Source: Candidatus Iainarchaeum sp. (lineage in GTDB: Archaea > Iainarchaeota > Iainarchaeia > Iainarchaeales > UBA10219). Taken from it: DNA of 64,000 nucleotides. The notes below the pieces were generated by a model. That model did no database searches, had not been told where the DNA came from, and saw nothing but the letters and a program-made list of their open reading frames with translations. The stretch is taken from NCBI GenBank assembly GCA_018304425.1, contig JAGVWE010000004.1:249189-313188 (forward strand), given 5' to 3'. This document shows, one piece after another, positions 1-41,457 of this stretch. Both the position numbers and the translations under genes were made by a program. Numbering within the stretch: position 1 is the stretch's first letter; each line of letters opens with the position of its first letter.

Positions 1-1055
1 TTCCCCGAAACCTTGTCCAAGACCTTGACGTTGATGACGGCCTGGACTTCCTTGGTCAGGGTCACGTCAACGGTCTTGGTCTGGTCCGCGTAGACCACGA
101 ACTTGTCGGACTGCGCGTTCGCATACGCCCCCGAAGTATCCGTTACCACCACGTAATAGGTGCCGGGCGTCGTCTTGAAGGCCTTCTCGCCGTAACTCGT
201 GAAACCCTGGTCCACGGAAACCCCCACCGCGTCCCTCAACTCGACCTGGGTGCCGTCCAAAGCCGGGTTCAACCGCACCAGGATTCCTCCCTCCCGGACA
301 ACGGCCTGCTGCAAGTGCAATACGCCCGAGCCGTCGTCGACAAACGAGTCCGAGGAAATGCCGCTGCCCTCCACGTTCACGAGCACGCTGCCACAGCCGT
401 CCGGCGGCACATAGGACAGCGTTCCATTGGTCACCGTGTAAGTGTCCTGCAGGAAGCTCACTCCCAGGTTCGAGCAACTCAGCCGCACCGTCAAGGGCTT
501 CAAAATCTTTTGCCCCGAGGCATCCGTGAAGGAAATGCTTTTGCCCAGCGCTTCCGGCCCCAGGCCCCCATTCCCGGTTCCCCCCGCTTTTTCGGCCAAG
601 GCCAGCCGTTGCTCGGCCGTGTCCTTGCCGAAGACAAACGACTTCTGCACGCCTTCAAAGCCGTCCCTGGTGACTATCAAGGCCACCTGGCTGCCCTCCG
701 GCAACTCAATGGATACCGCGCCCTGCGAGTCCGTGGTCAACGTGAACGTGTCCGCGTCCGCGGTCAAGGAAACCGAGGCATTGCCCAACGGGTTGCCGGC
801 CGCGTCCGTGACCTGCAGGCTCAAAACGGTTTTGGGCCCCAATGGGGGCGGCGTGAGGCCCGGCTGCAACAAGAAGAACGCGCCCACCGCGCCGACAACC
901 AGCAGCAGGACCAGCAACAGGAAGCTGGGCATGACCTGGTCGATGGGGTCCACGACCTTGTAAATCGGGATGACCTTGTTGAGGCCGTCCAGTACCTTGT
1001 AATAACCGTCTTCCAGGGAATAATAAAAGTCTTTGAGGTTCTGGCCCAAGCCCAT
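1..1055 (-). CDS. Giant N-terminally anchored surface protein, paralogue A (C-terminus cut off by window edge)
   Basis: Only the first 351 codons are visible; the frame is open to base 1. The protein starts MGLGQNLKDFYYSLEDGYY, followed by an IPIYKVVDPID stretch and a single transmembrane segment (about residues 43-66, PSFLLLVLLLVVG...). This is the same N-terminal module as in the three giant proteins upstream. After the membrane anchor come beta-rich domains of carboxypeptidase-regulatory/Ig-like type, with the typical 'DAAGNPLGNASVSLTAD ... TTDSQGAVSIELP' pattern. The start is the ATG that aligns with the paralogues, 12 bp after the stop of the 2,659-aa gene and preceded by a GGAG-like ribosome site, so it is probably the last visible gene of that operon. 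Role is inferred: an exported, membrane-anchored surface filament or adhesin. No enzymatic motif is seen. Confidence 0.85.
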   Translation of the reverse strand, partial: MGLGQNLKDFYYSLEDGYYKVLDGLNKVIPIYKVVDPIDQVMPSFLLLVLLLVVGAVGAFFLLQPGLTPPPLGPKTVLSLQVTDAAGNPLGNASVSLTADADTFTLTTDSQGAVSIELPEGSQVALIVTRDGFEGVQKSFVFGKDTAEQRLALAEKAGGTGNGGLGPEALGKSISFTDASGQKILKPLTVRLSCSNLGVSFLQDTYTVTNGTLSYVPPDGCGSVLVNVEGSGISSDSFVDDGSGVLHLQQAVVREGGILVRLNPALDGTQVELRDAVGVSVDQGFTSYGEKAFKTTPGTYYVVVTDTSGAYANAQSDKFVVYADQTKTVDVTLTKEVQAVINVKVLDKVSG

Positions 1056-1067
1056 GTCGTTCTACTC

Positions 1068-4000
1068 CTACTTTGACTCGATGCATGCCTTTTCAGGCGT
1101 GGTGGCCGTCGTAATCGCCAATTCCTCGGCTTTCATGAAGTCCGTGTCCGAGACCTTCTTGGGGTTCCACCAGAAGTCCGCCCGGGCATCCGTGCCCGAA
1201 ATGCAGACGAACTGTTTTGCCACCAGCTTCAAGACGTCTCCAATGCTTTCCACCTGGTGCCCGTCCAGCAAGCTGCTTACCTCAGGGACACCGTAGAGGA
1301 GGGCATCGCTTCCCCCGCCTGCCTGGGCAATGAATGATGCCTTGTCGTTGCCCACGTTCAAGTGGATTTTGCTTTCCTGGTTCTGGGGCGTATAGTAAAT
1401 GGTCTTCAGGTAGACGTTGCCGTAGTCCAGGGGCTTGCAGAACTCGAAGCCATAGCTGGTCGCGGCGATTTCCCCGCCCAACAACGCGCACTTGGTTTCC
1501 AGGCCGTGCTGGTCCGGCGTCTCGTAGAACGCTTCAATCATTCTCCTATCGTCGAAGCTCGAACAACTATAGCCTATGCCGTTCCACTTCGAGGAAACCG
1601 GGCCCAGGTTGGCGGCGTTGCCCCCGATGGCGAGGCTGTAGAACGCCCAGGCCTCGTCGTTGCGGTTGGTCATCTTCAGGATGAGGGGCGTGGCCTTGCT
1701 GGGGCTGTAGGTTATCTGGTTGATGGCTCCCCGGCTCACTTCGAGGATGGTGCCCCTTCGGTCGACGTTGAGGCGCTTGAAGTCATTGGACTTGTCGAAG
1801 ACCTCGATGACTCCGTTCTGCACCGGCGTGCTGCCCGGGATTTCCACGGTGTGAACGGCTTCCTCGGCCGGGTTCGCGTTCACCTTGATGCGGTCACCCT
1901 TGTAATTGACTCCATAGCCTACCCTCCCGTTGCTGACCCCGATGGGGCCATCGAAGGGCAGGTGGTAGAAGGGGCTGTCGGGTTCGGGGCTGTCCAAGCG
2001 GTCCAGCAACACCTCGATGCGGGCCGTCAACTTGTTGCCGTCGAACAGCTTCCAACGTGCATCGTCGTAGGTGATGTTGAGCGTGACATCGTAGATGCCG
2101 GGCCCCGGCAGCATATAGCCTTCGGGGTTCTGCTGGCCGAACCGGGGCTTGAACGTGAACCGTTCCGGGTCCCGGAAGTACTTGTACAAGCCGTCCACGG
2201 GGTTCTTGTATTCCGTGGGCGCGCCGAAGAAGCTCTGGGTCCGCGCGTACTCGTCGAAGTCGCGCTGGAAGTCGGCCGTGAAGCGGTCCTTGATGAGGTT
2301 GGCCTTGAAGTGGATCCGGTTCAGGAAGCCCTGCGCCGTTGGCCCAGTTATGCCGGAAGCCGCCAGGAAGTCCTCCATGCGGCTCGTCGAATACGGGGTG
2401 CACTGGGCCAGGGAATTGGTTCCCACCGAGAAACTGACTTCGAGGCTGTCCGAGCCCGCGTTGTTCTGGCAGCCCGGGCAAGCCAGGTTGGGCAGGATGT
2501 CGGCCCGCACCCGGTAATTGCCGTCAGGCAAGCCGGTGAGCTTGCATCCAACCGTGGTCGACTTGTTGACTTTCACGGTGAGGCTCTCGGGACTGCACTT
2601 GTAGTTCTTGCCGCTCAGCACTTCGACGGCGTAGGCCTTGACCTGGACCTCGACTTCGCCGGGGTTGTTGTTGGTCACTTCCATGGACACGTTGTAGTCG
2701 CTGCCCGTCCGCTTGGCTTCGAGGCGGCTCAAGCCGATGTCCTTGCCTCCGATGGTCGCGGTCCTGGTGCTGAGGGGCTCCAAGGCCGTTGGACACGAGT
2801 AGGGCGTGTTCCGCTCGATGAAGTCCTTTTGCAGGGTGTTAATCTTTTGCAGCAAGGCGATGCTGAACTGCGTGGCGTCGCAGAATATCGCGGTACCGTT
2901 GTCGGTGTCGCATTCGTTGGCGGTTATCGCTCTCCAGCCCCAGTCCAGTTTGATGCGGGGAATGGCGTCCGGCCCGGTTCTACCCGTCCTAACTCCCGAC
3001 TGGCAGTTCATGAGCTCGGGTTTGTAGTCGATTCGGGCCTCGGGGGGCACGGCGTTGAACTGCAACCGGAACTTCTGGTCCATGGGAACCGGTTTTTCCT
3101 CGTCCAACTTGGCCTTGTCGAAGTCTTTGGCGTCATAGGTCTTGTCCGCGTACTTGTGTTCGATGGCTTTCACGACCAGGTACTTGACTCTTGGGTTCTC
3201 GGGCTCGGTGGTGAAGCGCGGCGTCGAGTTGTTCGTGAACTTGAACTGCTGTTTTTCGGTCCTGGAATTGTTTTTCAGGTCCCGGCTCGTGCTGATGACG
3301 GGCTTGCCGTCGCCTTTCTCGCGGCTGACCAGGACTTCCGTGTCCTTGACTCCTTCTTCCTTGTCCGCGGGGAAGCCCGTGTACAACTCGAAGCCCTTGA
3401 TTTCAATGTCCTTCTGGATGGTGGGCATGTCTTCCTCGCCCTGGCCATAGTAGGAGACCACGGTTCCAATGGCCGTGGCCAGCAGGGCCTGCACGGCGCT
3501 GCCCTTGCTGCCCGTGATGGCACCCGTCAACGTGCCAATGATGTCAGTCGGGCTCACGCCTCCGCTACTGCCCCCGCTTCCCCCACTTGGCGCGGCCCTG
3601 CCCGTGGCCGGCAAGCCGGCGACGGCCGCGCCAACACTTCCACTCGGTTGTTGGCGCGAGTTGCCGCTTAAGGCCGGAGCAGCCGACAACGTATCTAGTT
3701 TTTTGCCGATGTCGGCAATGAGTTTATTAATTTCCTTTTTTTGGGTATCGGTTGCGGCCGGATTGTTCTTTAAGTCGCTCAAGTGTTGCGCCGTCTCCAG
3801 ATAGAAGCCTCTTTTCGTCTTTGCGTTGTCGCTTGAGTTATCCATTTGAGTTATTTGCTGGGTGTAAAGCCTAATGCTTTCCTGGATTAACGCAGTGGAG
3901 CCAGGTTGTGCCGCTGGTTGCGTTCCGCCCATTTTTTCTTCGATGGCCTTGGCTTTCACGCGCCATTCGCTGATTTTCACTTGTTGTTCCGTGGACGGGT

Positions 4001-7000
4001 TCGCGGCCGCGGCTACATCGAGTTTTTTCCTCGCTGTTTGGAGGTGGAGTAGCTTCTCGGCCTCTACTTTTGCGCTTTCAGCGGCCGCCACTTCCGTCCC
4101 GGCCTCGCTGAGCAGCGCGTCCACGTTAACGGTAGTCGTTTGCCCTTTAGCCTTTTTGGCGGCCAGTACCCTGTTATAGGCAGCCACTATGCGGTCGGCG
4201 GCATCTTTTCCAATGTCGCCGGTGAGCTTGTCCCCGTTTGCATTCAGCACGAAGTATTCGTCGCCTGATTTGACAAGGAAGGCAGCGCCGTCGGGCGCCG
4301 CGAGCTCGTCAATTATTTCGTCGTTTGAAAGCCCGGTAAACGTGGCGATGGTTGTGACGCTGTTATCGGAATCCAGGGAGCGCTGCGTTTTCGCAAGCTG
4401 AGCGGATTTGGCGGGGTCGACGCCGGCAGTGGACCCGCTTGTCGTAGTTGTGGGGGCCGTGGAGGCGGGTTGTTTCGCGAGGTCTGCTTCGAGGCTCTTG
4501 GCGAAGTCGTCGGTCACGGTTTCACCACTGCTTTTGACCACCCATTTGCCGGTGGGCTTTCGGATGTATTCCGTGCCATCCTTGGTCACGGTTTTCTCGT
4601 CCTTGGCCGCCACCTTGTCCTCGCAATGGTTTTTCCGGCAGACCTGGCCTTGCCCGCAGTCCTTGTCGTCCGTGCACTCCGGGCCGGTGATGGCTTCCGT
4701 GATGCTCTTGCCTTGGATGACGCCGGCCAGCGTCCCCAAGAGGAACGTTCCAATGCCTATTTTGAGGCCGTCCTTGAAGGCCTCGCCCCAGTCCTGGTAG
4801 TTGACGGTCACATCGACTCCTTTTTCGATGCACTTGTTGGTCAACTGCGCGGTGTCATAGCCGTCGAAGTCGTCTTTCGGCTGGTCGAGGACGTCGAACT
4901 CGTACTTGGAGAGCGCCAGGCAACCGATGGAGTCCACGCGCACGCGGATGTTTTTCAGCAACTGTTCTTGTTTCTCGTTCTGGGCCTTGGACTTCACGAC
5001 CACGCCGTACTGGCCGGGAACCTCTTCACCGGCGAAGACCTGCACCTGCTGCGAGCCATCGCCGTCCAACACGAATTCCTTGACGGAGAGTTCGAGGTCG
5101 GACTTCAACTCGAAGCCGGTTTTCCCGCCGCACTTCTTCGTGTTAATCGTGAAGGAGGCGTTGCCTTTCTCGGGCATGGCGATGAGGTGCCGGTCGAAGC
5201 TCACGCAGTCCTTGATGTTCACGATGTTGATTTGCGTGCCCAGCTTGGATTCCAGCAACTGGTCCTTGTCTTCCTTGGGGTTGCGCGCCGAAAAGGAGAC
5301 GTCGGCCTTTGCCTCGCCCATGGTGCCGCCGTAGGGCGTGAAGGTCAAAATCGCGTTCAGCGTTTCCCCGGCCTTCACTTCGCTGACGATGGCCCGGCTG
5401 TACGCGGAGCGCAACTCGACTTCGGTCTGGCCAATGGTGACCCGGTACTCGCCCAACTGGTTGCCTTGGAAGGCGAGCTGGGCTTCGAGCCTGCGCAGGG
5501 GCACGGGCTGGCCGTTAATCGTGCAATTGTTCTGGATCTGGAACTCGACGTTCACGGGGTTGCCTTCGGTGGTTGTCTCCCACTTGTTGCGGGTCAGGGT
5601 CAGGCAACCCGGGCTGTCAACATCGCCGGACAAGCCGATGCCGATTCTGGCCGGTATTTCGAACACCCATTCCTGGCCAAAGTTGGTCACGGTCACCAGG
5701 AACTTGCCGTCCAAGTCCACGCGGTCGGTCAAGGCCTTGCCGTCATCGCTTAAGAACACCCGGAGGGTGCCGTCCAGGGTCTGGCCCGGCTGGATGACGT
5801 AGTTATTGTAGTTCGAGACCAGCCAGTTCCTCGTCTGCTGCTCGTCCAAGAGGTTCTTGAAGTTGCCCACCAACTCGATGGACAGCACTTTCAAGGGGAA
5901 GTTGGCCACGTTCTTGGCGTGGAAGCCGGTCTCGGCTTCGGGCTTGGACTTCGCGTTCAGGCTCATGCCCAACTGGTTGGGCTGGATTTCCAGGATGTTG
6001 GAGGTAACGGTTATCTCGGCTTCCTCTTGGTCGAACTTTTCCTTCTCGCATTGGAGCACGAGTTGCACGCCCGGCAACTGCGCGGGCACGCGAATCACGG
6101 CCCTTCCCTTGGAATCGGTTTTCGCCTTGACGATGACGTTGCCCCGCTTGTCTTCCAGGCGGCAGGTGGCGTTGTCCACTTCGAGGTTGGTGCCGGAGTC
6201 GACGAGGTTGAAGACCAGGTCGTTTTCGATGCCGGAGGACAGCGTGCTCCGCTCTAACTGGATGAGCAGCTGCTTGGAGGCCGCCACCGCGACGTTGATG
6301 AACCGGTCGAAGGCAATCTGCTGGTCGGACACCAGGCGGAAGTTGATGACCCCGTTGATGGCGCGCTGGGTGGCGAACCGGAACCGGCCCGTTATCCGCT
6401 TGTTGGGGGCCAGGTTGCCGACGTCCAGCCGGGGGAACTCGGGGCCGTTGACGTTGCCCACGCGCGGCCTCCCGTCCGCGTCGTTGACCGTGTAGTCCAG
6501 GAAGATGAGCGACAGGTCGGGGTTGGTTACGCGGAGGTTGGCGTTGGTGTGGTACAAGGCCTTCGAGTTGTTGGTGAGCGTGAAAATCATCTCGTATTCC
6601 GTGAACACCTGGGCCTGGTAGGTGTCGGTTACGTTCTCCAAGAGGTCTTCCTGGAGGTTCCGGATGGACGCGTCAAAGCAGAAGTCCTGGTCGCAGAGGG
6701 TGCTGGCCCCGACTTGGTAGGTCTGCTTGTAGGCGTTGTCATACAATTCCGTGGTCTCGATGAAGTCATCCGCCGGGTCCCTGACCACGACCCCGTCAAC
6801 GGCCCAGGCCCGGTAATAGACGTTCAATTCGTCGCCCACGGAAGCCGTTTTCCGCACCTGCACCGTGGCCTCCAACTCGTAGATGCCGGGCTTGGGGTTC
6901 CGCCAGTAGGCGTTCAGCCACTTCGCGTCCCCGTTCGTGTAATCGTAGCCGGACTCGTCGAGGCCGCTGCGCTCGTCGAAGGCCGTTGACTTGATGAGGC

Positions 7001-9047
7001 TCGCGCCCGGGGCATTGACTCCCTTGAGGTAGAGGTCATCCTTTTCCATGATGAGGTCGTCGCCGGTGCGGATGTGGAGGCCGGCCTCCTTGTAGGGGAG
7101 CGCATCCGGCAGCCTCAACTGCCACCTCCCCGTGTACTCTTCGCCGGCCGCCAGGTTGGTGGCCAGCCTTTCTCCCTTGAACAAGCCCAGGAACTTGACT
7201 TCGGCCGGCCGGTCGATGATGCTGGGTTCGAGGACCGCGGTGAAACCCGTGTACCCGCTGGCCTGGATTTTCCGGCTCGGCGAAACATACGTTGAATAAC
7301 CGTCCTTGGCCGCGCTTACATAGACTTCCTTGTCGGCCTTGGTTTCAATGGAGAACGAGCCGTTCGCGTCCGTGTACGAGGCGCCGATTTTGCCGTTGGT
7401 CAGCGTGCTGTACACCGTCACCAGGGCAAAGGGAATGGCCTTGTTGTCCTTGTTGACCGCGTTCACGTAGAGGGTGCCCTTGCCCACCTGCATGGCCACC
7501 GTCACGTCAATGCCTCCACCGCTAGTGGTTCCGCCCCCGAACCGGAAGTCGTTGCTCCGGCCGGCGCCGAACTCGCGGAAGGCAAACGCGTAGTACAAGC
7601 CGGGTTTCACGCCCGCGAACCTTGCCAAACCGTTGGCGTCCGAGGTCTCGCTTTCATAGCCGGCCACGAAATTGGTTTCCGGCACGTACAAGGCCACGCT
7701 GGCATTGTCCACCGGGCTCCCGTCCTCGTCCAAAACCTGCACGGACAGCAACCCGCACTTCTGGGCCGAGCACTTTTCCAACGCGATTTCGGGGGTGTTC
7801 GCGGAAATCCGCGCGCTCGCCACTTTTTCGAGGACATAGCCTGCGGCTTCCACGGTCACCCGGTAGTCCACGTCGTCCGAGACGTTGAACACCACGACGC
7901 CGTCCGCACCCGTTTCAAGGGACTTGAATTCGCTGTCATCCGCGGCCAGCCTCAAGGTCACCCGCGCGCCGGCAAGGGCCTGGCGCGTGGCCTTGTCCAC
8001 GATTTTGAACGCGATTTTTCCCTTCACGTTCGAGGTCAGCTCGAGGTTGACGGTCGCGCTCTGCCCGGCGTACACCGTTATGCGCTCGGATTGCCGCAAG
8101 CCATAGTTGCCGGTGGAGTCATAGGCTTTCACGAGGTAACTGCCCTGGGGCTTGTTGAACACGGCCTGGCCGTCATAAGCAACCGTCGAGTCCACGGGCC
8201 CGACTTCCGGGTTCGCCAGCAGGTCCTCGTAGCGGAACAAGTCCACGTCCACGCCGCTCAGGGGCTGGCCCCGCGCGGAAACGTTGACGATGATCCGGCC
8301 GGCTTCGGCCACCACGCCTTCGAGGTAAACGGTTTTCACGTCCGAGTCCACGCTCACCGAGGCCAGGTTGGCCCACCGCTCGGAGTCGGAGATCGTTGCA
8401 ATCAATTGCCCGCAGCCGGCGGGTTCTTCCACGACGGCTTTCCCGTTGGAGACGACCATGGCGTCAGGCGCCTTCACGTAGGGGCTCTTGCACCGGAATT
8501 CCACGCGCAGTTCATCCGTAATCGGCTGGCCCAACTCGTTGAGGAACCGCAGGGTGCGCGTGCTCGCGCTCCCCGCCGCTGCCCCGCTTTTTTCGAGGGC
8601 AATGGTCTCGGTTTGCTCGTCCGCCGTGGCCTCCACGGACTTGGTCTGGCTCTTGTAGCCCTCGCCTCCCACGGTCAGGGTGACCTTGCCGCCCTTCGGC
8701 ACCCGCAACTGCACCTGGCCAAAGGCGTCCGTGGTCAGGGCCTCGGTTTTTCCGTCCGAGTAGGAGACGCTGACCAGCATGTTGGGCAAGCCAATGTCCT
8801 CCGTGTCCAGCACCCGCACCGTGAGGCTGGTGTTGAAGCCCTGGAAGGCCATCGTGAAAGCGAAGTTGGCGGCCACGGCCAGCGCCACCAGGAACAGCAG
8901 GGCCATGATGGGGAAGCTGGGCAGGATGCGGTCAATGGGGTCAATGATTTTGTAGACCGGGATGACCTTGTCTATCTTGTCGAGTAATGCGTAGTAGCCG
9001 TCCTCGAGCTGGAAATAAAACTCTTTCAATCCATCCAGGAAACCCAT
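1068..9047 (-). CDS. Giant N-terminally anchored surface protein, paralogue B (2,659 aa)
   Basis: The N-terminus (MGFLDGLKEFYFQLEDGYY, then IPVYKIIDPIDR and PSFP) precedes one transmembrane helix at about 46-70. Residues 73-600 hold at least five carboxypeptidase-regulatory-like beta modules ('G.pv.na.V.l ... T.a.G.a.f'). A CD..FC pair sits near residue 782, an NNCTINGQPVPL motif near 1171 and an FCDATQF motif near 2054; all recur in the paralogues. A hydrophobic stretch (about 1419-1449, GLKIGIGTFLLGTLAGVIQG) is followed by a small cysteine knot-like motif (CTDDKDCGQGQVCRKNHC, about 1456-1474), a long Ala/Lys/Glu/Thr-rich helical region to about 1860, and another hydrophobic stretch. Ten bp separate it from the upstream paralogue, so the two are probably co-transcribed. 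Extracellular location is inferred from the anchor and the cysteines. It could be an adhesin, filament or cell-contact protein. Confidence 0.88.
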   Translation of the reverse strand: MGFLDGLKEFYFQLEDGYYALLDKIDKVIPVYKIIDPIDRILPSFPIMALLFLVALAVAANFAFTMAFQGFNTSLTVRVLDTEDIGLPNMLVSVSYSDGKTEALTTDAFGQVQLRVPKGGKVTLTVGGEGYKSQTKSVEATADEQTETIALEKSGAAAGSASTRTLRFLNELGQPITDELRVEFRCKSPYVKAPDAMVVSNGKAVVEEPAGCGQLIATISDSERWANLASVSVDSDVKTVYLEGVVAEAGRIIVNVSARGQPLSGVDVDLFRYEDLLANPEVGPVDSTVAYDGQAVFNKPQGSYLVKAYDSTGNYGLRQSERITVYAGQSATVNLELTSNVKGKIAFKIVDKATRQALAGARVTLRLAADDSEFKSLETGADGVVVFNVSDDVDYRVTVEAAGYVLEKVASARISANTPEIALEKCSAQKCGLLSVQVLDEDGSPVDNASVALYVPETNFVAGYESETSDANGLARFAGVKPGLYYAFAFREFGAGRSNDFRFGGGTTSGGGIDVTVAMQVGKGTLYVNAVNKDNKAIPFALVTVYSTLTNGKIGASYTDANGSFSIETKADKEVYVSAAKDGYSTYVSPSRKIQASGYTGFTAVLEPSIIDRPAEVKFLGLFKGERLATNLAAGEEYTGRWQLRLPDALPYKEAGLHIRTGDDLIMEKDDLYLKGVNAPGASLIKSTAFDERSGLDESGYDYTNGDAKWLNAYWRNPKPGIYELEATVQVRKTASVGDELNVYYRAWAVDGVVVRDPADDFIETTELYDNAYKQTYQVGASTLCDQDFCFDASIRNLQEDLLENVTDTYQAQVFTEYEMIFTLTNNSKALYHTNANLRVTNPDLSLIFLDYTVNDADGRPRVGNVNGPEFPRLDVGNLAPNKRITGRFRFATQRAINGVINFRLVSDQQIAFDRFINVAVAASKQLLIQLERSTLSSGIENDLVFNLVDSGTNLEVDNATCRLEDKRGNVIVKAKTDSKGRAVIRVPAQLPGVQLVLQCEKEKFDQEEAEITVTSNILEIQPNQLGMSLNAKSKPEAETGFHAKNVANFPLKVLSIELVGNFKNLLDEQQTRNWLVSNYNNYVIQPGQTLDGTLRVFLSDDGKALTDRVDLDGKFLVTVTNFGQEWVFEIPARIGIGLSGDVDSPGCLTLTRNKWETTTEGNPVNVEFQIQNNCTINGQPVPLRRLEAQLAFQGNQLGEYRVTIGQTEVELRSAYSRAIVSEVKAGETLNAILTFTPYGGTMGEAKADVSFSARNPKEDKDQLLESKLGTQINIVNIKDCVSFDRHLIAMPEKGNASFTINTKKCGGKTGFELKSDLELSVKEFVLDGDGSQQVQVFAGEEVPGQYGVVVKSKAQNEKQEQLLKNIRVRVDSIGCLALSKYEFDVLDQPKDDFDGYDTAQLTNKCIEKGVDVTVNYQDWGEAFKDGLKIGIGTFLLGTLAGVIQGKSITEAITGPECTDDKDCGQGQVCRKNHCEDKVAAKDEKTVTKDGTEYIRKPTGKWVVKSSGETVTDDFAKSLEADLAKQPASTAPTTTTSGSTAGVDPAKSAQLAKTQRSLDSDNSVTTIATFTGLSNDEIIDELAAPDGAAFLVKSGDEYFVLNANGDKLTGDIGKDAADRIVAAYNRVLAAKKAKGQTTTVNVDALLSEAGTEVAAAESAKVEAEKLLHLQTARKKLDVAAAANPSTEQQVKISEWRVKAKAIEEKMGGTQPAAQPGSTALIQESIRLYTQQITQMDNSSDNAKTKRGFYLETAQHLSDLKNNPAATDTQKKEINKLIADIGKKLDTLSAAPALSGNSRQQPSGSVGAAVAGLPATGRAAPSGGSGGSSGGVSPTDIIGTLTGAITGSKGSAVQALLATAIGTVVSYYGQGEEDMPTIQKDIEIKGFELYTGFPADKEEGVKDTEVLVSREKGDGKPVISTSRDLKNNSRTEKQQFKFTNNSTPRFTTEPENPRVKYLVVKAIEHKYADKTYDAKDFDKAKLDEEKPVPMDQKFRLQFNAVPPEARIDYKPELMNCQSGVRTGRTGPDAIPRIKLDWGWRAITANECDTDNGTAIFCDATQFSIALLQKINTLQKDFIERNTPYSCPTALEPLSTRTATIGGKDIGLSRLEAKRTGSDYNVSMEVTNNNPGEVEVQVKAYAVEVLSGKNYKCSPESLTVKVNKSTTVGCKLTGLPDGNYRVRADILPNLACPGCQNNAGSDSLEVSFSVGTNSLAQCTPYSTSRMEDFLAASGITGPTAQGFLNRIHFKANLIKDRFTADFQRDFDEYARTQSFFGAPTEYKNPVDGLYKYFRDPERFTFKPRFGQQNPEGYMLPGPGIYDVTLNITYDDARWKLFDGNKLTARIEVLLDRLDSPEPDSPFYHLPFDGPIGVSNGRVGYGVNYKGDRIKVNANPAEEAVHTVEIPGSTPVQNGVIEVFDKSNDFKRLNVDRRGTILEVSRGAINQITYSPSKATPLILKMTNRNDEAWAFYSLAIGGNAANLGPVSSKWNGIGYSCSSFDDRRMIEAFYETPDQHGLETKCALLGGEIAATSYGFEFCKPLDYGNVYLKTIYYTPQNQESKIHLNVGNDKASFIAQAGGGSDALLYGVPEVSSLLDGHQVESIGDVLKLVAKQFVCISGTDARADFWWNPKKVSDTDFMKAEELAITTATTPEKACIESK

Positions 9048-9057
9048 GTTCTCGACC

Positions 9058-17241: not shown

Positions 17242-17361
17242 ACCCGACCTCAACCCCTTAAATCACTAAATAATTTTACTCGATTAATATACTTTGTTGG
17301 GTGATTGTATATATATACTTATCCTCTATTTAAATTCTTCTTCTACCGCCTTTAACGCCCT

Positions 17362-17367
17362 AAAAAA
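17362..17367 (-). terminator. Possible oligo-T terminator after the 575-aa pilin-like gene
   Basis: On the minus strand a T6 tract, flanked by C and G runs able to pair, lies about 50 bp after the stop of the 575-aa gene. Oligo-T tracts terminate archaeal transcription. The 176-bp gap between 17242 and 17417 otherwise holds AT-rich promoter-like DNA for paralogue C. Confidence 0.35.
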
Positions 17368-17417
17368 GGGGGTTACGCGGGTTTCGGCTTCCCGCCCTTT
17401 TTTTGCCGGCTGCCTTG

Positions 17418-19145: not shown

Positions 19146-19167
19146 CGAGCAATTAAAGGAATAAGTC

Positions 19168-19175
19168 CTTTAAAT
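19168..19175 (-). promoter_or_regulatory. TATA box for the 575-aa pilin-like gene
   Basis: The minus-strand sequence ATTTAAAG is centred about 26-27 nt upstream of the ATG at 19145, as in leaderless archaeal promoters. It overlaps an imperfect palindrome (AAAGGA-n5-TCCTTT, about 19155-19171). Confidence 0.5.
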
Positions 19176-19177
19176 AG

Positions 19178-21529: not shown

Positions 21530-21562
21530 CGTTTTCCGCCTTTAATAACATTACTTGGTGAA

Positions 21563-21578
21563 CTTATATAAATATACT
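21563..21578 (-). promoter_or_regulatory. TATA-like promoter element upstream of the 208-aa gene
   Basis: A long AT-rich box (minus strand GTATATTTATATAAGT) is centred about 41 nt from the ATG at 21529, giving a predicted leader of about 15 nt that could hold the AAAGGCGG ribosome site. Confidence 0.45.
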
Positions 21579-21598
21579 TCGGCTTTGCCCCTTGCCCC

Positions 21599-24500
21599 TC
21601 ACGTGGCCCGCGTGGCGTTCCACCGGGTATACGTGTCATATAACTCGTCCAGGTCCGGCTCGGCAGGCGCGCGGTACTTCTTGCCATAGGCTTGCAGGAC
21701 GCACGCAAACTGCTGGGCTTCTTCTCCGGGGCAAGCAGCCAGCAGGGACTTGACTTCCCCGGCCGCGCAGTCAAAGCTCTCGGCAAGGCCCTTGAACTTG
21801 GGGTCGGGCTTGCCGCACCCCGTGATGTACTCGTAATTGGTTTTCGCGCCCAGGTCCGTTTGCCAGATGCCGAGGACGATCAGCAGGGCCTCTGGCACCC
21901 CGGCTTTTGCCGCTATCTCCGTCGAGTGATGCCCAATGGCTTCGTAATAGGTTTTCACGTACCTTGCTTCCGTTTTTCCTTTTTCGCCCCACAACCCGGC
22001 GTTGGGCCGCAAATTGTGCAGGGCCTTGGAAACGTCCTTGTCAAACGCCTTGCCCGTGCAGTCCTCGAGCTTCTTGCTCTGGTCCACCGCTGCTAGGTCC
22101 GTTACGAGTGAAATCTTTTTCTCGACGAAGTCGCCCACGCGCTTCATGGTCACCTTGTAGGTCTCGCCCCGCTTGAACTTCTCGTCCGGCATCTCCGCCG
22201 TCACAACCTTTCCGTCCGGCGTCTTCACGGTCGCGGACGCGACAATGCTTTCCGTGGGAGTAATGGGTTCGGCGGCGAACTGCCAGTACGCTTCCCAAGC
22301 CAGCAACCCCATGAACTGCGCGAACAACCCGGAAACCACGCCGCCCAACAACTTCAAGGCGCCCTTGCCGCTCGCCTTCAAGATAGTGTCAGTAAAGAAT
22401 TTCTTGATGGCCCCCGAGCCCTTGCCCTTGACTCCGGTCTTCCGCATTTCCTCGAGGATGTCTTTCATGATTTTTTCCTCTTTTTCGCCGAGGGCAACGG
22501 ATTCCTTGGCTGAAAGGGTTTGAACACCGGCCAGCGCACTCCACACGGTTTTCTCGGCTTTCACCACATCAGCCACCCTTGCATTGACGGCGGCGGTGAG
22601 CTGGTTTTTGGCAATGCTGCCATTGCTGGTCCACACCGCGTCGCGCAAGGCATGCTCTACTTCCTGCCTCACCGCTGCCCTAAAGGGCGTTGCGCCAGGC
22701 GTTGGAATAAGGCCCCCACCTGCCTTGGTTTCAATGGCATCCACAATCTTGGGCGCAAGTTCATCCGACCACTGCATAATCTGGGCATTGCCGCCTGGAC
22801 TGAAATCGGTTACGTTCCAGCCACCCACGTTCCTTCCCGGCGTAAAAGTTCGCAGCATGTTCTTGGTGTTGATGTTGTCAGGAAGGATTGCACTCTTGAA
22901 CGCCGCTTCCACGTTCTCGCTCGTCAGCTTTTTCAACGCGGCTTCGTCGGCTTCCGTGATGAGTTTCCTCGCCTCTGCCCTGAGCGCCGTGTCGAAGTGA
23001 CCCGCCCTGAATGCGGGCCGGTTGAGAACCACGGGGGCCACTTCCTGCCGCGCCTTCAACAAGGCTTCCTGCAACTCCGTTTCAGTCAACTGCTTGCCTT
23101 TCGTGTAATAGTTGTCGAACAAGTATTTCTCGAGTTCTTCCGCGTACTCCCTGTTGAAAGTTTTCCTGGCGGTTTTGTCCAATGAATCCAGTTGCGCGGT
23201 CCACCGGGCGTTGCTTTCAGCGGTGGCAAGCTCTTCCGATACCTGGCCAAAGATTTTTTTGGCGCTTTTTTCGGTCAACGGCTTCTTCAGCTCCGGGATG
23301 ACCAATTCCTTGGCCGCGCCCTCGGCGCCAGCCAGTTTGGCCCCCTCTTCCACGGCTTCCTTGACCGCGGCCTCTCCGCCGCCGGCCGCAGCCGCCTTCT
23401 CCAATGCCGTGCCAGTAACCCTCCGGATGGTGGCCGGGATGGCCGGAATCACTACCTTGCCGGCCGAACTGCCAATGCCCACCGTCACCAGCATGTCCTC
23501 GGTCTTGCTCTTGAAGTCCTCCAAGTCCTTTCCGCTCGCCTTTCCGCTGGCAATCTGTTCGGCCTGCGCCTGGAAGTCCGCCACCTGTTTTTCGGTCACG
23601 GTTTCCGGCGAACCCAAACCAACGGTGCGCTTGGCAGTCGAGTAAACCCCGGAACCCGCCTTGGAAATCGTGGTTCCCACCTTGCCCAAGACGCCGGCGT
23701 AATCCAAGCCAGCGACGCCAACGGGAACTATGCAGTCCCAGAAGAAGCTAAAGGCCCCCACCGGGAAGCCGGCCGCAGCCGCAATGAACTTGGCGCTCCC
23801 GCACCCGACCAGGAAGACGCCCAGGCCGCCGAACTTCTGCAACGTGAACTTCTTGTCATACGCAGTCTGCCCCTCGGCCGGCGCGTCCGCCAAAATCTTG
23901 GTGGCGTCGTCCATCCGCGCCTTGGCGTCCTCGAGGTTCTTCAAGTTGCTCAACGTGATTTCGTCGGGGCCGCCCTTCCAGCCCAGGGTGGCATACAATT
24001 CCTTGGTCTCGCCATCCGCTAGCGGTTCCTTGGCGATGCGGTCCATGAAGTCATAGGGGTGCAGGGCGCACACCTGCAGGGAAACGGTTCCGTCCTTCGC
24101 GGCCTTCTTGGCGTGCACCGCGGACTGCGCGCCCAACACGAGCTTCTTGCCCTGCACCATCTGCGCGTGCGCGTCGCCCAACGCGCACACCTGGAAGTTC
24201 TTGTAATAGCGGCCCTTCAAGTCCTTTTCCTTCAAGTCCATGGCGGAAAACGCCTGCGCGCCCACTTCTTCCTTCCGGGTTTCCTCAAAGGGCTTGCCGC
24301 GGTACACCCGTTGCTCGCGGTTCTCCACCTGGGCCTGCACGTAGAATTCCTTCAAGCCGTTGAACGCCGTTTCCTGCTTCACCGACACCTTGACCGGCTC
24401 GGAGACGTCGCTGAACACGTTGAAGTCACAGCACGCGGTGTTCTGGCTGACCGTCAACGGGTTCGGGCAGGCGTTGAGCTCCAGTTGCCCGATTTTCTCG

Positions 24501-27500
24501 GTGGACTTCAACCAGAACGCGTTCTCGTTGTCCGTGATGCAGCCATCGATTTTGCGCTCGCTGAGCTCCCGCATGGCCAGCGCCGCGCTCTGCACGATTT
24601 GCTTTTCGACCTTGGCCTTCGCGGCCTCCTCGCCGCCCTCGAAGTCCTTCACCAACGCGTTAATCGTCATCTTCTGGCCGGCCTCCGTGGAGCGAATCAG
24701 GTCGAGTTTGACGAGGTAGCCCTGCGTGTCCCCGGTGGCCAAGCGCACCCGGTTGAATTCCGGCTCGCCTTTCCGGACCCGCTTGTCCGAGTTGAACAGG
24801 GAGGACGCGAACTCCTTGGCCAGGCCCTCCATTTTGTCGTCCGCATAAGTCACCAGGCCGGGCCAGGCGTTCCGCGTGTTGTCCGCCGAGTAGCCCGCGT
24901 CCAGGGGCAGGAACGCCATCGCGTTCTGGATTTTGTTCTCGCATTGCTGGGTCAACTGCCGCACGTTTTCGCCTTCCTCCAATTCAGAGCGCAAATCCAG
25001 GTAAACATCCATGGCATCTGTAATCATTCTCCCGCCCTGCACCTTGACCGCGCCCGACAGCCGGGCCTTGTAGAGGCCGCAGCCCTCGAAGGCGTCGGAG
25101 AAGAAGAGCTGCTTGCCGTAGCCCGTGGCCAGGCTCTGCCGGTACTCGTCTTCCGTGGCCGGGAACTTGACGTTGTAGGCGTTCAACTCCGGGGCCTTCT
25201 TCGCGAAGCCGTCCTTCAACGCTTCCACGCTGAGCACGTCGTTCGCGAAATAGACTTCGAACTTGTCGGGCCGCAAGCCCAGGTTCTCGAACAGGCAATA
25301 GCCTTCGTTGAGGGCCGCGTTGTCCGCATAGCAACCCGTGTTCGCGACCTCGTTCTTGTAGTGCGCGGTAATCTGCTTCTGCGCGTCCCGCAGCTTTTCC
25401 TGGATGCGCTTGGCCAGGAACTGGCCCAACTGCTCGGCATCGCAGTAAGCCTTGTCGCAGTCCGCCTGCTTCGCGATTTTGGGGAAGGAAACCTTTTTCC
25501 GCTCGTTTTTGTCGCACACCGGGATTTCCTCGGGCTCGGTGGCGGCCTCGCCTTTGAGCGTGGCCGACTTGCCCAACTCCAGCTGCACGCTGATTGGCTG
25601 CGAGGAAACGAATTTGTTGCTGCGCACCAGCAACGCGCGCAAGTACACCGGCACCGGGCTCGACGTGAAGTAGGCCTCGTTCTTCTTGAGCGTCAAATTG
25701 ACCGTGGTCGAGGCCCCGGGGAAGAGCACCGTGTCCTTGACCGCCAAATCCAGTTCGTTGGCGCCAATCCGCTTGGGTTCCGCGCCCAAAACCCGGACCT
25801 CTTCCGCGCAACTGTTCTTGACGGTCAGGGCTTCCTGCAAGGCCCCTTCCGTGGCCCGCTTGGACTTGAACTCAATAAACGCGGGACTGACCACCAGGCA
25901 TTGCTTGGGCGAGATGTGCACCGTGACAATTATGGGGCCGAAGTCATGGGTTTTCCCGTTGATGATGCCCCGCATCCCGATCTCCTGGACGTCCAGGGGA
26001 GTGGTCTTCTCGGTCCGCTGCGCCCTCGCCACCACGTAATAGGGGGGCATGAGGCTCTGGCCCCGCCGCAGCACCTGCACCGGGAACTTGGGCTCAATCT
26101 CGATCTTGGCGTTCCCGGACTGGAACCTTCCCCCCACCGAGAAGCTGAGGTTCTGGATGTCCGCGTACCCCACGTTGGTCGCATAAATGGGCACCGTGAC
26201 CTTGGCCTCTCCCACGCCAGTATCCGACAGGTAAACGTCGATGTTCCTGGACACCTGCAAGGCAGAGTCCTTGTTCCACAACACGACTTCCAAGGGCAGG
26301 GACTTCGACAACAAGTCGCTCCTGAACCACACGTCGTAGAGGAACCGCTGCTTTTCCGCGTAATTCCGTTCCAGTTCGTTGACCACGCTGACGTTGATGG
26401 TCCGGGTGTCGGTCTGGCTTCCCGCCGGCCCCAGCAAGAGGTTTTCAACGGCCACGCGGATGCTCTGGTCAGGCACCCCCACCGGCACCACGGCTGACTG
26501 CAACTCGACTTCCGTGGCGCACTTGTTTTTCGCCGTAATCTGCACGGCCTGCGTGCTCGCCGGCTCGGTCAACAGGTAGGTCACGAGCCGCGCCGAACTG
26601 AATTCCACGCAGTTGGGGTCCAGCGGCCGGTTGTAGTCCAGCACCACCCGCGTCTGCGCTTCGACGCGGAACTTGCCAAAAATCCGTCCCCTGAAAATCA
26701 CGTCGGCTTCGCCGTGCGCGCGCTCGGCCTTGCCGCTGTACTCGCCTGCCACCGTCACCTTGCCACTGGCATTGGGTTCAATCGCGTTCGGCGGCGTAAC
26801 CCGCAGGTCCAGGTCCTCCGGGAAGTCCCCTATCTTCACGACTTCAACGGTGAGGTCCTGCACGCGGTCCGAAGAGGTATTCCGCAAGTCGAACCGCTCG
26901 TCCGCGTTCTTCTGCCCCTTGGGGATGTTGACTTCCACGGCTTGCGGCGCCGTTAACACCCCGTCCCGGCCTATTTCGACCACGCCTTCCAGGGGCTTAT
27001 AGTCGGCCGCGTTGGCCGTGAACCGCAGGGTTCCCGCGGGAAAAGCGTTCTTGACTAGGTACAAGCCGTTCAAGCCCTTGTTCACGGTGCCCGTGCCCTG
27101 GATGACCCGCAGGGGCGCGTTGCCTTCGCCGTAGAACGTCAGGACCGCCCGCTCAACAAAGGAACCGTCCCCGGCCTTCAACAAGACCGTGAAGTCCTGT
27201 CCGACCAGGACGCGGTCGGGCGAGACCGTGGCCGTCATGCCCTGGTCCTGGCTGACCTCGAAGTTGAAGTTCTGCGTCACCGCGCTCACGGCCGAAATCA
27301 ATTGCACGGTCAAGGCCGCCGAACCCTTTTCCACGGCCTTGAAGTAGAGCCGCACCTGGACCGGGCCGCCCGGCAAGACCTTCAAGTCCTTGGCCGTGAG
27401 GTCCGTGTCCGTCGAATCCTTATCCGGGAAGTCCGCGAACTGTTCCACGCCGTAACCCGTGAAGAAAATCTTGGGCGCGTTCCTCGAAGTCGCGCCCTTG

Positions 27501-30010
27501 ACCGTGACGCTGACTTCCCGTGCGGGCGCGACCTCGACTTCCAAGGCATACTTGTTCCCCACCACCGCGTGGAAGTTGCCGGCCTCGAACACGGTCCCGT
27601 CTTCGGCGAGGAACCGGTAGGTCGCGCAGAACTCGTCCTTGCAGGTGGGCCGGGCGTTGAACACCGGCACGTCGACGCGGTTGGTTTCCGCGTACAAGCC
27701 CGTGCGCTGGGCGGAGAACTCCAGGCCCTCCAACAACGGATCCCTGGGCAGCCTATAATAGGCCGAGCCAATCCGGGTCCAGGCCCGGTAATACAGGGGA
27801 TACGAGCTGCTGGCAGCGGTTTCCTTGGCTTTCAACCGCACCTTGTACACGCGTTCCGCCGCGCCTCCCTCGTGATACAATTCCAGCCACCGGTTGTATT
27901 CCCCGGGCAAGCCCCGGTTCCGCAAGTCAATGCCTTCGAAGCCGGGACTCGGCTGCGGCGTGTAACTGCGTCCATACGCGAACCTGGGAGCCAGGCCCGT
28001 GAAGCCAATGATGCCCGCATCGCTGGAGTCCGCGAACCTGATTTCGTCGGGCCCGAACCGGAAGTGCATGCCGCCCACGTATTTCCCGTCCGGCCACGCC
28101 GTCTTGAACACCGCGTAATAGTCCTGGCCCTTGACGATTCCCTCCACCTTGTTCCCGTTGGGGTCCTCGAAGCCCATGAACTGGACTTCGGGGGCCAGGC
28201 CCGTGACCTTCTGCTCGCCAATCGTGAGGCTCAAGGCATTCTTGCCTTCCACGAAGACCTCTTCCTCGAACAACGCGCCATCCCGGCCCGTGTAACTCAC
28301 TTTCACGGTCTTCAAGCCGCCGGGGTTGAAGTACACCGTGCCGCCCGTTACCGGGCCCGAGTAGAGGACGTTGCCGCTCGTGGACGACACCACGATGTTG
28401 CCCGCCGCCATCGGCTGGCCCTGCGCGTCCACCAAGGACAAGGCGAACACGCCTCGGTCGGTTTTCATGAAGATTTCAAGCCGGTTCTCGGCCCTCGCAT
28501 CCGTTGCCAGGGAGGCCTCGCCTTTCTCGTTTTCCTTGACGGCCGTGACCAACAGCGTTTTGCCGACGGGAACCACCGCCTTGGCGTAGCCCGTGATGTC
28601 GGTCCTCGTCTGGGAAACGCCTAACGGCAACTCGCCCCCCGCCACGGACTCGTAGAAGGTCAGCACCGCGTCGTTGGCGGCATCGCCCTTGGAGTCGGAG
28701 ACGAACACGCTCAGGGTAGTCGAGTTGTCAGGCGCGGCCCGCGCCAACGGAAGGGTGTACTCGGTTTGCTGTTGGGCGTTGACCTCGATTCGGGCCGGCA
28801 GATACCGTTCCGCGTTGGCCGTGACGTAGTACTTTTGCTGCGCGTCCAGGTTCCGGAAGTAAACGTCTCCACCGAACTGGGTCAAGCCCGAGTCCATGAA
28901 CTCGGCTTGCGCGTCATACAATTCCACGGCCGCGTTGGACAACACGAGGCTGCTGTCCTGCGCCGTGACCGTGACGTGAATGGATGCGCCGCCCTTGCGG
29001 AGCTCGACTTGCACGACCTCGCTGTCGTCCCGCAGGGTCTTGCTGATGAGTTCAACCGAGGAGTCGAAGGCAATGTAGCCCTCCGCGGATACCACGTACC
29101 GGATGCTCGTGCCCTTGGCTATCTTCGTGAAGTATTCCCCGTCCTCGTCCACGTCGTCCAGGATGAGCTCGCCGCTCTTGGCGTCATACACCTTGACCGA
29201 GACCTCGGGCACCAGGGTCTTCGAGTCCGCGTCGAACACCCTGAAAATCGCGTTGGACAAGCCGATGGTGGCGCTGGCCTTGGGCGGAACCTCCAGTTCC
29301 GAGGTCGAGCCCTCGGAGAACCGCAGGACGAACGCCTTTTCCTCGTAGTTGTCCGCGTAGACCTTCAATTCCACGTCCTCGCCTTCGGGAACGCCGAGGC
29401 AGGACACCAGGCCGTTGCCTTCGACTTCGCAGGAGATTTCCTCGCCCGTGGAAAGCCGTGCCACGACCTTCGCGTTCTTTATCTGGTCCTTGGTCTGCGA
29501 GTCAACCAGGGAGAGCCTTCCCAGGATGGTGCTGACTTCCTTCTGCAACTGCACGGCCACGCTGGCAGACTTCTCGTTGACCTTGACTTCGCCGGAACCC
29601 GACAGGTAACCTTCCTTGGCGCCCACGACTATCAGGGTCGCGCCAATCGGCACGCCCTTAACGGCAACCGTTTCCCCGTCGCGTAGCACGTCTTTTTCGA
29701 GGGCAAACCGTTTGCCGTCCTCGCCCTTGACCTGGACTTGCACGCCGCTGACCGGCTGGCTGAACTGGTCCACGAAATGAGTGGTCAATTGCACGTCATA
29801 GCTGGTGCCCACGAAGACCAGGCCCAGCACCAGGCCCAACACCACCAAGAACAAGGCGGTGAACACGGGGAAGGCGGGAATGCCGCGTTGTTCCAACGCG
29901 TCAATCAAGCCGTAGACCGGGAGCCCCTTGCCGTCCAGGAAGTCGGCGAAGCCAAAGAACCGCTCCTCCAAGGCCGAGTAAAAGCCGCCTAACATCTCCG
30001 ACAAACCCAT
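21599..30010 (-). CDS. Giant N-terminally anchored surface protein, paralogue D (2,803 aa)
   Basis: It has the family N-terminus (MGLSEMLGGFYSALEERFF, LPVYGLIDALEQ, PAFP) and an anchor helix (about 45-70), then many carboxypeptidase-regulatory/Ig-like beta modules. The cysteine signatures fall at the same positions as in B and C: PTCKDEFC near 788 and NKCATEVEL near 1160. AYCDAEQL is near 1520. Residues about 2050-2120 are hydrophobic (FGGLGVFLVGCGSAKFIAAAAG...), followed by a roughly 400-residue Ala/Glu/Lys-rich helical region and a second hydrophobic patch (LLGGVVSGLFAQFMGLLAW). The C-terminal 110 residues form a small Cys-containing helical domain (GVPEALLIVLGIWQTDLGAK...), loosely reminiscent of lysozyme-like folds but without a clear catalytic Glu. 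The start is supported by a GGTGA ribosome site 8 nt upstream. Confidence 0.87.
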   Translation of the reverse strand: MGLSEMLGGFYSALEERFFGFADFLDGKGLPVYGLIDALEQRGIPAFPVFTALFLVVLGLVLGLVFVGTSYDVQLTTHFVDQFSQPVSGVQVQVKGEDGKRFALEKDVLRDGETVAVKGVPIGATLIVVGAKEGYLSGSGEVKVNEKSASVAVQLQKEVSTILGRLSLVDSQTKDQIKNAKVVARLSTGEEISCEVEGNGLVSCLGVPEGEDVELKVYADNYEEKAFVLRFSEGSTSELEVPPKASATIGLSNAIFRVFDADSKTLVPEVSVKVYDAKSGELILDDVDEDGEYFTKIAKGTSIRYVVSAEGYIAFDSSVELISKTLRDDSEVVQVELRKGGASIHVTVTAQDSSLVLSNAAVELYDAQAEFMDSGLTQFGGDVYFRNLDAQQKYYVTANAERYLPARIEVNAQQQTEYTLPLARAAPDNSTTLSVFVSDSKGDAANDAVLTFYESVAGGELPLGVSQTRTDITGYAKAVVPVGKTLLVTAVKENEKGEASLATDARAENRLEIFMKTDRGVFALSLVDAQGQPMAAGNIVVSSTSGNVLYSGPVTGGTVYFNPGGLKTVKVSYTGRDGALFEEEVFVEGKNALSLTIGEQKVTGLAPEVQFMGFEDPNGNKVEGIVKGQDYYAVFKTAWPDGKYVGGMHFRFGPDEIRFADSSDAGIIGFTGLAPRFAYGRSYTPQPSPGFEGIDLRNRGLPGEYNRWLELYHEGGAAERVYKVRLKAKETAASSSYPLYYRAWTRIGSAYYRLPRDPLLEGLEFSAQRTGLYAETNRVDVPVFNARPTCKDEFCATYRFLAEDGTVFEAGNFHAVVGNKYALEVEVAPAREVSVTVKGATSRNAPKIFFTGYGVEQFADFPDKDSTDTDLTAKDLKVLPGGPVQVRLYFKAVEKGSAALTVQLISAVSAVTQNFNFEVSQDQGMTATVSPDRVLVGQDFTVLLKAGDGSFVERAVLTFYGEGNAPLRVIQGTGTVNKGLNGLYLVKNAFPAGTLRFTANAADYKPLEGVVEIGRDGVLTAPQAVEVNIPKGQKNADERFDLRNTSSDRVQDLTVEVVKIGDFPEDLDLRVTPPNAIEPNASGKVTVAGEYSGKAERAHGEADVIFRGRIFGKFRVEAQTRVVLDYNRPLDPNCVEFSSARLVTYLLTEPASTQAVQITAKNKCATEVELQSAVVPVGVPDQSIRVAVENLLLGPAGSQTDTRTINVSVVNELERNYAEKQRFLYDVWFRSDLLSKSLPLEVVLWNKDSALQVSRNIDVYLSDTGVGEAKVTVPIYATNVGYADIQNLSFSVGGRFQSGNAKIEIEPKFPVQVLRRGQSLMPPYYVVARAQRTEKTTPLDVQEIGMRGIINGKTHDFGPIIVTVHISPKQCLVVSPAFIEFKSKRATEGALQEALTVKNSCAEEVRVLGAEPKRIGANELDLAVKDTVLFPGASTTVNLTLKKNEAYFTSSPVPVYLRALLVRSNKFVSSQPISVQLELGKSATLKGEAATEPEEIPVCDKNERKKVSFPKIAKQADCDKAYCDAEQLGQFLAKRIQEKLRDAQKQITAHYKNEVANTGCYADNAALNEGYCLFENLGLRPDKFEVYFANDVLSVEALKDGFAKKAPELNAYNVKFPATEDEYRQSLATGYGKQLFFSDAFEGCGLYKARLSGAVKVQGGRMITDAMDVYLDLRSELEEGENVRQLTQQCENKIQNAMAFLPLDAGYSADNTRNAWPGLVTYADDKMEGLAKEFASSLFNSDKRVRKGEPEFNRVRLATGDTQGYLVKLDLIRSTEAGQKMTINALVKDFEGGEEAAKAKVEKQIVQSAALAMRELSERKIDGCITDNENAFWLKSTEKIGQLELNACPNPLTVSQNTACCDFNVFSDVSEPVKVSVKQETAFNGLKEFYVQAQVENREQRVYRGKPFEETRKEEVGAQAFSAMDLKEKDLKGRYYKNFQVCALGDAHAQMVQGKKLVLGAQSAVHAKKAAKDGTVSLQVCALHPYDFMDRIAKEPLADGETKELYATLGWKGGPDEITLSNLKNLEDAKARMDDATKILADAPAEGQTAYDKKFTLQKFGGLGVFLVGCGSAKFIAAAAGFPVGAFSFFWDCIVPVGVAGLDYAGVLGKVGTTISKAGSGVYSTAKRTVGLGSPETVTEKQVADFQAQAEQIASGKASGKDLEDFKSKTEDMLVTVGIGSSAGKVVIPAIPATIRRVTGTALEKAAAAGGGEAAVKEAVEEGAKLAGAEGAAKELVIPELKKPLTEKSAKKIFGQVSEELATAESNARWTAQLDSLDKTARKTFNREYAEELEKYLFDNYYTKGKQLTETELQEALLKARQEVAPVVLNRPAFRAGHFDTALRAEARKLITEADEAALKKLTSENVEAAFKSAILPDNINTKNMLRTFTPGRNVGGWNVTDFSPGGNAQIMQWSDELAPKIVDAIETKAGGGLIPTPGATPFRAAVRQEVEHALRDAVWTSNGSIAKNQLTAAVNARVADVVKAEKTVWSALAGVQTLSAKESVALGEKEEKIMKDILEEMRKTGVKGKGSGAIKKFFTDTILKASGKGALKLLGGVVSGLFAQFMGLLAWEAYWQFAAEPITPTESIVASATVKTPDGKVVTAEMPDEKFKRGETYKVTMKRVGDFVEKKISLVTDLAAVDQSKKLEDCTGKAFDKDVSKALHNLRPNAGLWGEKGKTEARYVKTYYEAIGHHSTEIAAKAGVPEALLIVLGIWQTDLGAKTNYEYITGCGKPDPKFKGLAESFDCAAGEVKSLLAACPGEEAQQFACVLQAYGKKYRAPAEPDLDELYDTYTRWNATRAT

Positions 30011-41436: not shown

Positions 41437-41457
41437 ACCCCTTTCCTGCACCAAACA

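Follow-up and report, generated by a model that had tools for sequence, protein, structure and literature searches.

The window analysed here, a 64,000-nucleotide stretch, corresponds to positions 249189-313188 of contig C3 in a Candidatus Iainarchaeum genome of 1.48 Mb and seven contigs. Four giant genes, named A-D by their position in an array, lie on its minus strand. Giant D (3..1055) contributes its N-terminal 351 residues, comprising an N-terminal module, a transmembrane (TM) helix, and CarboxypepD_reg domains, and encodes 2375 residues when the whole gene is read in the genome past the window's left edge. Giant C (1068..9047) encodes 2659 residues, giant B (9058..17241) follows it, and giant A (21599..30010) encodes 2803 residues. 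The open reading frame of giant B opens at 17253 with TTG (2731 residues), but the ATG at 17241, giving 2727 residues, is the more likely start. All four giants begin with the shared module and continue directly into one TM helix, as a first-pass annotation of this DNA had claimed and as the reading frames, BLASTP, and a module HMM confirm. That annotation had counted the gene at the left edge outside the complete giants; its module was correctly recognised, but the gene is a giant as well. The tandem of giants that it had placed at 1-30010 likewise stands, but the locus runs on to ∼53.3 kb, with an archaeosortase, motor genes, and putative pilins.

In BLASTP comparisons, giant C (2659 residues) and giant B (2731 residues) aligned at 28% over 1316 residues (E 5e-130), and giant A aligned with both of them over roughly its first 800 residues (E 3e-9 and 2e-21); on these alignments, the giants of the window are real paralogues. 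The three giants that are complete in the window share three cysteine motifs, namely (i) CDQDFC, CDDAFC, and CKDEFC (Cys 785-790, 783-788, and 790-795), (ii) an N-N/K-C motif (Cys 1175, 1167, and 1164), and (iii) FCDATQ, FCDAVQ, and YCDAEQ (Cys 2056, 1936, and 1523), all found where they had been reported at first pass. After the TM helix, the giants carry one to six CarboxypepD_reg domains each, scoring up to 122 bits against a cut-off of 32.3, and the remainder of each consists of tandem CarboxypepD_reg/Ig-like domains plus stretches that are harder to recognise. A cupredoxin-like domain (9058-9318, minus strand) ends giant B and is missing in the other aligned B proteins. Beyond giant A, a DUF4143/AAA_14 ATPase gene (30124-31302, minus strand) precedes a further, module-free giant of 2521 residues (31465-39030, minus strand), which sits between giant A and the archaeosortase and has an N-terminal TM segment, long charged regions resembling coiled coils, and a PTPVPT repeat. 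A DDE transposase gene (61851-63083, plus strand) lies near the right end of the window.

The N-terminal module

The module occupies 924..1055 in giant D, 8910..9047 in giant C (residues 1-46), 17101..17241 in giant B, and 29870..30010 in giant A, all on the minus strand. It has a long form in A and B (GIPVY..IEAxNIPSFP in giant B) and a short form in C and D, a distinction that is mostly kept. Across 82 aligned sequences, numbered as the giant C residue number plus 2, the columns E17, D25, P32, and Y34 are invariant, and Y13, Y21, D38, and P45 are nearly so; conservation per column is 2.8 bits in the module versus 1.7 bits in the TM helix and what follows. A scan of the 82 members against Pfam and NCBIfam returned only scattered, chance-level matches (best E 0.00085), any one family being hit by four members at most, and a search of the module against PDB sequences found nothing. 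The module thus matches no Pfam or NCBIfam family and is hence undescribed, which supports the first-pass claim.

The structure prediction that the first-pass annotation had proposed for the N-terminal region yielded, for the giant C module with 80 sequences, an AlphaFold2 model with a mean pLDDT of 94. Run as a single chain and numbered from 2 residues upstream of giant C Met1, it comprises (i) a helix at 3-30, (ii) a short helix at 34-43, and (iii) the TM helix at 46-71, followed by a β sandwich, and it is on this sandwich that the Foldseek matches fall (carboxypeptidase transthyretin-like domains, CnaB, and SlaB). In the amphipathic helix 1, a stripe is formed by the conserved residues Y13, E17, Y21, and D25, at every fourth position, with the conservation moment ∼81 degrees off the hydrophobic moment. 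As modelled, helix 1 would lie on the inner leaflet and display a conserved surface. Lys and Arg residues number 2.6 in the 20 residues before the TM helix versus 1.0 in the 20 after it, a bias that therefore argues for an N-in topology. From this positive-inside bias, and from the peptidoglycan-hydrolase domains found at the opposite end in relatives, we predict a cytoplasmic location for the module, in keeping with its first-pass placement. We also considered giants A-D as pilins and rejected the idea, since the TM helix comes only after ∼45 residues that form acidic and aromatic helices, in place of a short basic leader and a hydrophobic helix.

An HMM of the four modules recovered those four, along with a fifth copy in another part of the genome, at E 2.9e-20 or better, and a scan of genome contigs gave 65 module loci, mostly from Diapherotrites/Ca. 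Iainarchaeum, with a few from MAGs labelled Micrarchaeota, one Thaumarchaeota, and one Forterrea. The module is present in 81/87 Iainarchaeota (Diapherotrites) genomes, including 25/25 of those at least 90% complete, and in 14/19 genomes of a second phylum, including all five good ones; several second-phylum genomes bear the NCBI label Diapherotrites. Among the 389 archaeal genomes searched, only five outside both phyla gave a match, at an E value (0.004-0.01) that is chance level. Most genomes with the module have one to seven copies, which sit nearly always at the extreme N-terminus, beside the first TM segment, of proteins with a median length of 2198 residues (39 loci with the stop seen). 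The association of the module with giant proteins, claimed at first pass, therefore held almost always in the HMM search of archaeal genomes; neither a known Pfam family nor a predominance of unrelated soluble proteins, the two outcomes that had been named as speaking against it, was found. Short module proteins were considered as free-standing units in Iainarchaeota and rejected, because those examined run on in another frame with giant homology and are therefore frame-broken giants. The second phylum has real-looking short module proteins of 131-156 residues. A fifth giant paralogue (G000 C1:37223-45003, L164), with a signal-peptide-like, TM-containing extension before its module, is broken over three frames and may be a pseudogene or an assembly error.

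The conserved pilus-motor locus

Neighbourhoods were compared in detail for eleven genomes, with a few more added. In the shared order, putative pilins, a TadC-like platform gene, and an ATPase gene are divergent from an archaeosortase, giant A, a prepilin-like gene (h1), and giant B, after which come a small TM protein (in some genomes), giant C, giant D, small TM proteins, and then housekeeping genes. The window matches this order from the archaeosortase (40912-41502) through A, h1, B, C, and D, with extra local genes in between. Small proteins flanking the array (families F4/F5) resemble proteins found next to the pilus ATPase in other DPANN archaea, a match that, given their coiled-coil bias, is suggestive only. 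In a quick-search tree of the first 1300 residues (A from six genomes, B-D from nine), proteins A, B, C, and D are each monophyletic by position (SH-aLRT 100, 100, 100, and 98, respectively), with giants B, C, and D of the window in the corresponding groups. Since each position forms one branch across genomes, the four paralogues are older than the order's diversification. A separate array of four giants is present in the second phylum.

Counted as lower bounds among the matches listed, the ATPase and a module on one contig lie within 27 kb of each other in at least 28/28 genomes, the archaeosortase lies no more than ∼6 kb from the ATPase in at least 43/45, and neighbouring modules are spaced 6.5-11.5 kb apart in at least 38/42 cases. 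The link of the giants to FlaI/FlaJ-like genes suggested at first pass is thus supported, the co-occurring genes being a FlaI/TadA-like ATPase and a TadC-like platform. One genome (G007) is a counter-example, in which the giants are retained although the ATPase and the archaeosortase are encoded at a distance from them.

The ATPase (43375..45684, plus strand) is a FlaI/TadA-like assembly ATPase with an N-terminal domain of its own; it matches PF00437 (E 1e-16; 60.8 bits, cut-off 24.9), as well as the NCBIfam FlaI model, at E 3e-45 but under that model's cut-off. The TadC/FlaJ-like platform protein (45690..47996, plus strand) matches PF00482 at 27.9 bits (cut-off 25.2). The locus therefore holds both the PilB/FlaI/TadA-type ATPase and the T2SSF/FlaJ/TadC platform by which a type IV filament system is recognised. 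The prepilin-like protein h1 (KGFTLFTALVSIILIVLAVLLAQ; 17418..19145, minus strand; family F6, alignment A3) has a weak ComGF match, and its family, encoded between A and B in the arrays that were compared, occurs in 58 genomes of the order, with only weak matches outside the window's phylum, in the second phylum. Three more prepilin-like proteins are encoded on the plus strand, namely GQRGQAFEAFKLLIGAILALLIL (48001..48447), whose homologues (F11) neighbour the ATPase in other genomes, GQSGQAFDVFKLLIAAVVAL (48516..49034), recognised from its sequence, and GQKGQESAPFELLVAVVIM (50764..51324; F15). In these proteins, a GQ(R/S/K)GQ motif and hydrophobic segment, a possible class III prepilin signal, were spotted by eye, and a Pfam scan gave no match.

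The N-terminal domain of the ATPase is strongly matched (E below 1e-40) in both module phyla and in one more genome (G387). That the motor is exclusive to module genomes was considered and rejected, since distant relatives of this domain occur in many other DPANN genomes; we infer that the motor is a pilus motor widespread among DPANN and that the giants would have been built into its locus. In G387, the locus on contig C53 (L165) has the close ATPase relative, a 218-residue membrane protein, and a 919-residue prepilin-like protein, with no module match, and is possibly a divergent version. Elsewhere around the motor genes of the window, two acylphosphatase-domain proteins with near-identical coiled-coil tails flank them (39888-40562 and 49556-50404, both on the minus strand), and a PemK/MazF-like toxin gene (E 1e-31) lies at 42700-43068 on the plus strand. 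A second ATPase and T2SSF gene set starts at 63437-64000 (minus strand) and runs on to C3:316046.

The archaeosortase-family protein (40912..41502, minus strand) carries the family signature with its Cys (SYLCTG), Arg (FNIIRI), and His (LTHDLFFR), by which it is recognised as an archaeosortase/exosortase, and matches the locus-type profile at E 9.8e-42; two homologues from the locus in relatives score above the TIGR04178 cut-off. The giants were considered as its substrates and rejected, the listed giants having no C-terminal motif-TM-basic tail. A 1615-residue open reading frame (54783-59630, plus strand), whose true start is probably internal, ends in LPEEPLALALFVLGLLAVFVCVRGTRVNRA, an archaeosortase-type sorting tail (LPEEP-TM-basic), and its product is, from that tail, a better substrate candidate than the giants.

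Far ends of the giants and possible function of the module

A C-terminal domain of ∼400 residues (1071..2360, minus strand, in giant C) is common to B, C, and D. Across 39 sequences it has invariant Gly, Arg, Tyr-Gly, and Trp residues, and its model is confident (pLDDT 90.6). Against the PDB, the best Foldseek E value was 0.09, and the best VIA-align Z score was 2.9, covering ∼80-100 residues of MSCRAMM-like sandwiches for what is a large model; no match is clear, and we do not call the domain a new fold. The C-terminus of giant A differs between lineages and carries peptidoglycan-hydrolase domains in three, namely Amidase_2 (1.4e-29) with a weak glucosaminidase match in G058 (C1:301300-311634), Amidase_3 (6e-21) with glucosaminidase (1e-10) in G060 (C26:50920-61044; L181), and glucosaminidase in G069 (C47:18293-26635; L182). 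All three of these proteins have the module at the N-terminus. Hydrolase domains are a minority feature, with any glucosaminidase match in 11/87 genomes and any Amidase_3 match in 4/87. A lysozyme-like end of the window's giant A was suspected by eye, but Pfam and PDB-sequence searches gave no match, so it is not claimed; nor is an SLT-like tip in G006. Separate glucosaminidase genes lie beside the giant array in G036 (C1:655707-658757, also with Amidase_3) and G058 (C1:312314-314779).

We rate at even chances the reading that A-D are N-anchored parts of one type-IV-pilus-like surface machine, in which the module is a cytoplasmic foot that gathers the giants. Each giant would insert as a type II membrane protein with its first ∼45 residues in the cytoplasm, where an amphipathic helix on the inner leaflet would lead, through a short second helix and a Pro break (PSF), into the TM helix. 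The stripe of helix 1 (Tyr, Glu, Tyr, and Asp), together with the PxY and D-P-hydrophobic-D motifs, would bind a common site, most likely on the platform or on small membrane proteins encoded in the locus, or else on the other giants, and so bring the four giants together. The Ig-like stalks would extend far from the cell to tips formed by the shared ∼400-residue domain in B-D and by a variable end in A, a peptidoglycan hydrolase in some lineages. We infer the docking role, the joint assembly, and the role of the machine, which would likely lie in cell-cell contact or in organising the envelope where it surrounds the pilus.

Counted for this machine are (i) the distribution of the module, (ii) the monophyly of A-D, (iii) the kept gene order, (iv) the proximity of the ATPase and archaeosortase and the regular spacing of modules, (v) the restriction of h1 to the module phyla, (vi) the helical model with its conserved face and the higher conservation of the module than of its TM helix, (vii) the charge bias, and (viii) the hydrolase tips of giant A. 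Against it count the persistence of giants apart from the motor in G007 and the ATPase relatives in DPANN genomes without the module, and the common synteny could be ancestral instead of functional. The conservation and stripe of the module would fit a docking surface and an oligomerising anchor equally well. The first-pass proposal of a docking or targeting signal for a dedicated export or assembly route is supported in its tie to FlaI/FlaJ-like genes; the module itself may be either an export signal or an anchor.

If the module were such an oligomerising membrane foot, the giants could instead have a structural part in the envelope, as S-layer stalks or as spacers of a pseudo-periplasm, in an ancestral pilus neighbourhood. 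We consider this main rival less likely, although the module is universal in good genomes, as expected of housekeeping envelope proteins, the Ig-like domains are arranged in tandem, the β-sandwich fold matches include SlaB, an S-layer stalk protein, and the giants of G007 remain though unlinked from the motor; gene order preserved over many families despite great sequence divergence, the prepilin-like gene nested between A and B, and the hydrolase tips on giant A all argue against it. Still less probable is a mere topogenic or targeting signal, which would direct N-in insertion via the ribosome or the Sec pathway and bind nothing later: its position, in nearly all copies, at the start of the protein beside the first TM segment and the positive-inside bias would suit such a signal, but a signal anchor needs far fewer fixed positions than the four invariant and four nearly invariant residues seen across both phyla, and the long (A/B) and short (C/D) forms are mostly kept distinct. 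The archaeosortase, found beside the ATPase in nearly every genome, might also act on the giants, cutting or transferring them at the P-S-F before the TM helix and thereby releasing or lipid-linking them, and a Pro motif right before a TM helix does recall sortase signals. This we hold to be highly improbable, as P-S-F is at the wrong end of the protein and, by prediction, faces the cytoplasm, the giants have no C-terminal motif-TM-basic tail, and the 54783-59630 protein is a better substrate.

A membrane foot of the kind proposed for the surface machine has counterparts in PilN/PilM or GspL-type inner-membrane assembly proteins, which have a single TM helix and, ahead of it, a short N-terminal stretch in the cytoplasm that docks the membrane protein to a cytoplasmic assembly factor; the likeness is an analogy only, and the outer part of the giants is thousands of residues of Ig-like domains. 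Sulfolobus SlaB likewise combines a single-TM anchor with extracellular β-sandwich domains, and the first Ig-like domain matches it at fold level. The SlaB anchor is C-terminal, whereas the giants are anchored N-terminally, have a conserved cytoplasmic module, and form four paralogues.

Large surface proteins in archaeal type IV pilus loci are already known, including DUF2341 'PilY-like' proteins in Methanococci and large proteins in Thermoproteales (Makarova et al. 2016, PMC4858521). The present locus resembles these in joining a FlaI/TadA-like ATPase, a TadC/FlaJ-like platform, prepilin-like proteins, and large surface proteins, and differs in that its giants are four paralogues, 2.2-3.4 kaa long, each with an N-terminal TM helix and a module in the cytoplasm; the text of that paper mentions neither Diapherotrites, DPANN, nor archaeosortases. 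What is new here is the module and the four-giant array, of which the literature searched, covering few subscription journals or preprints, held no description. Archaeal peptidoglycan hydrolases that kill bacteria are also known (PLoS Biol 2025, PMC12352652), in a paper whose main text does not mention Diapherotrites/Iainarchaeota; those described here share the bacterial-wall hydrolase domains but carry them at the end of a membrane-anchored giant. A large surface structure for cell contact, the attachment organelle of Nanobdellota YN1, is described in another DPANN phylum (PMC11420986), in passages that name no genes for it.

Together, these data suggest an undescribed cell-surface machine, namely giants with a shared module in a conserved pilus-motor locus, in two archaeal phyla of tiny cells. 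Very little is known of the cell surface in Iainarchaeota (Diapherotrites), and it has long been asked how members of DPANN make contact with hosts or neighbours. The presence of the module in every good genome of both phyla, and of four paralogues predating the order's diversification, points to a core function, for which the module provides a 60-residue marker, with a defined gene set for testing. Tentatively, and as a bolder proposal, this could be a cell-contact machine core to both phyla, with the four giants recruited by the module to a pilus motor with its archaeosortase, and with an exchangeable giant A tip that digests bacterial walls in some lineages, in attachment to or attack on bacteria. 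The hydrolase tips of giant A make it a testable possibility that some Iainarchaeota may act on bacteria.
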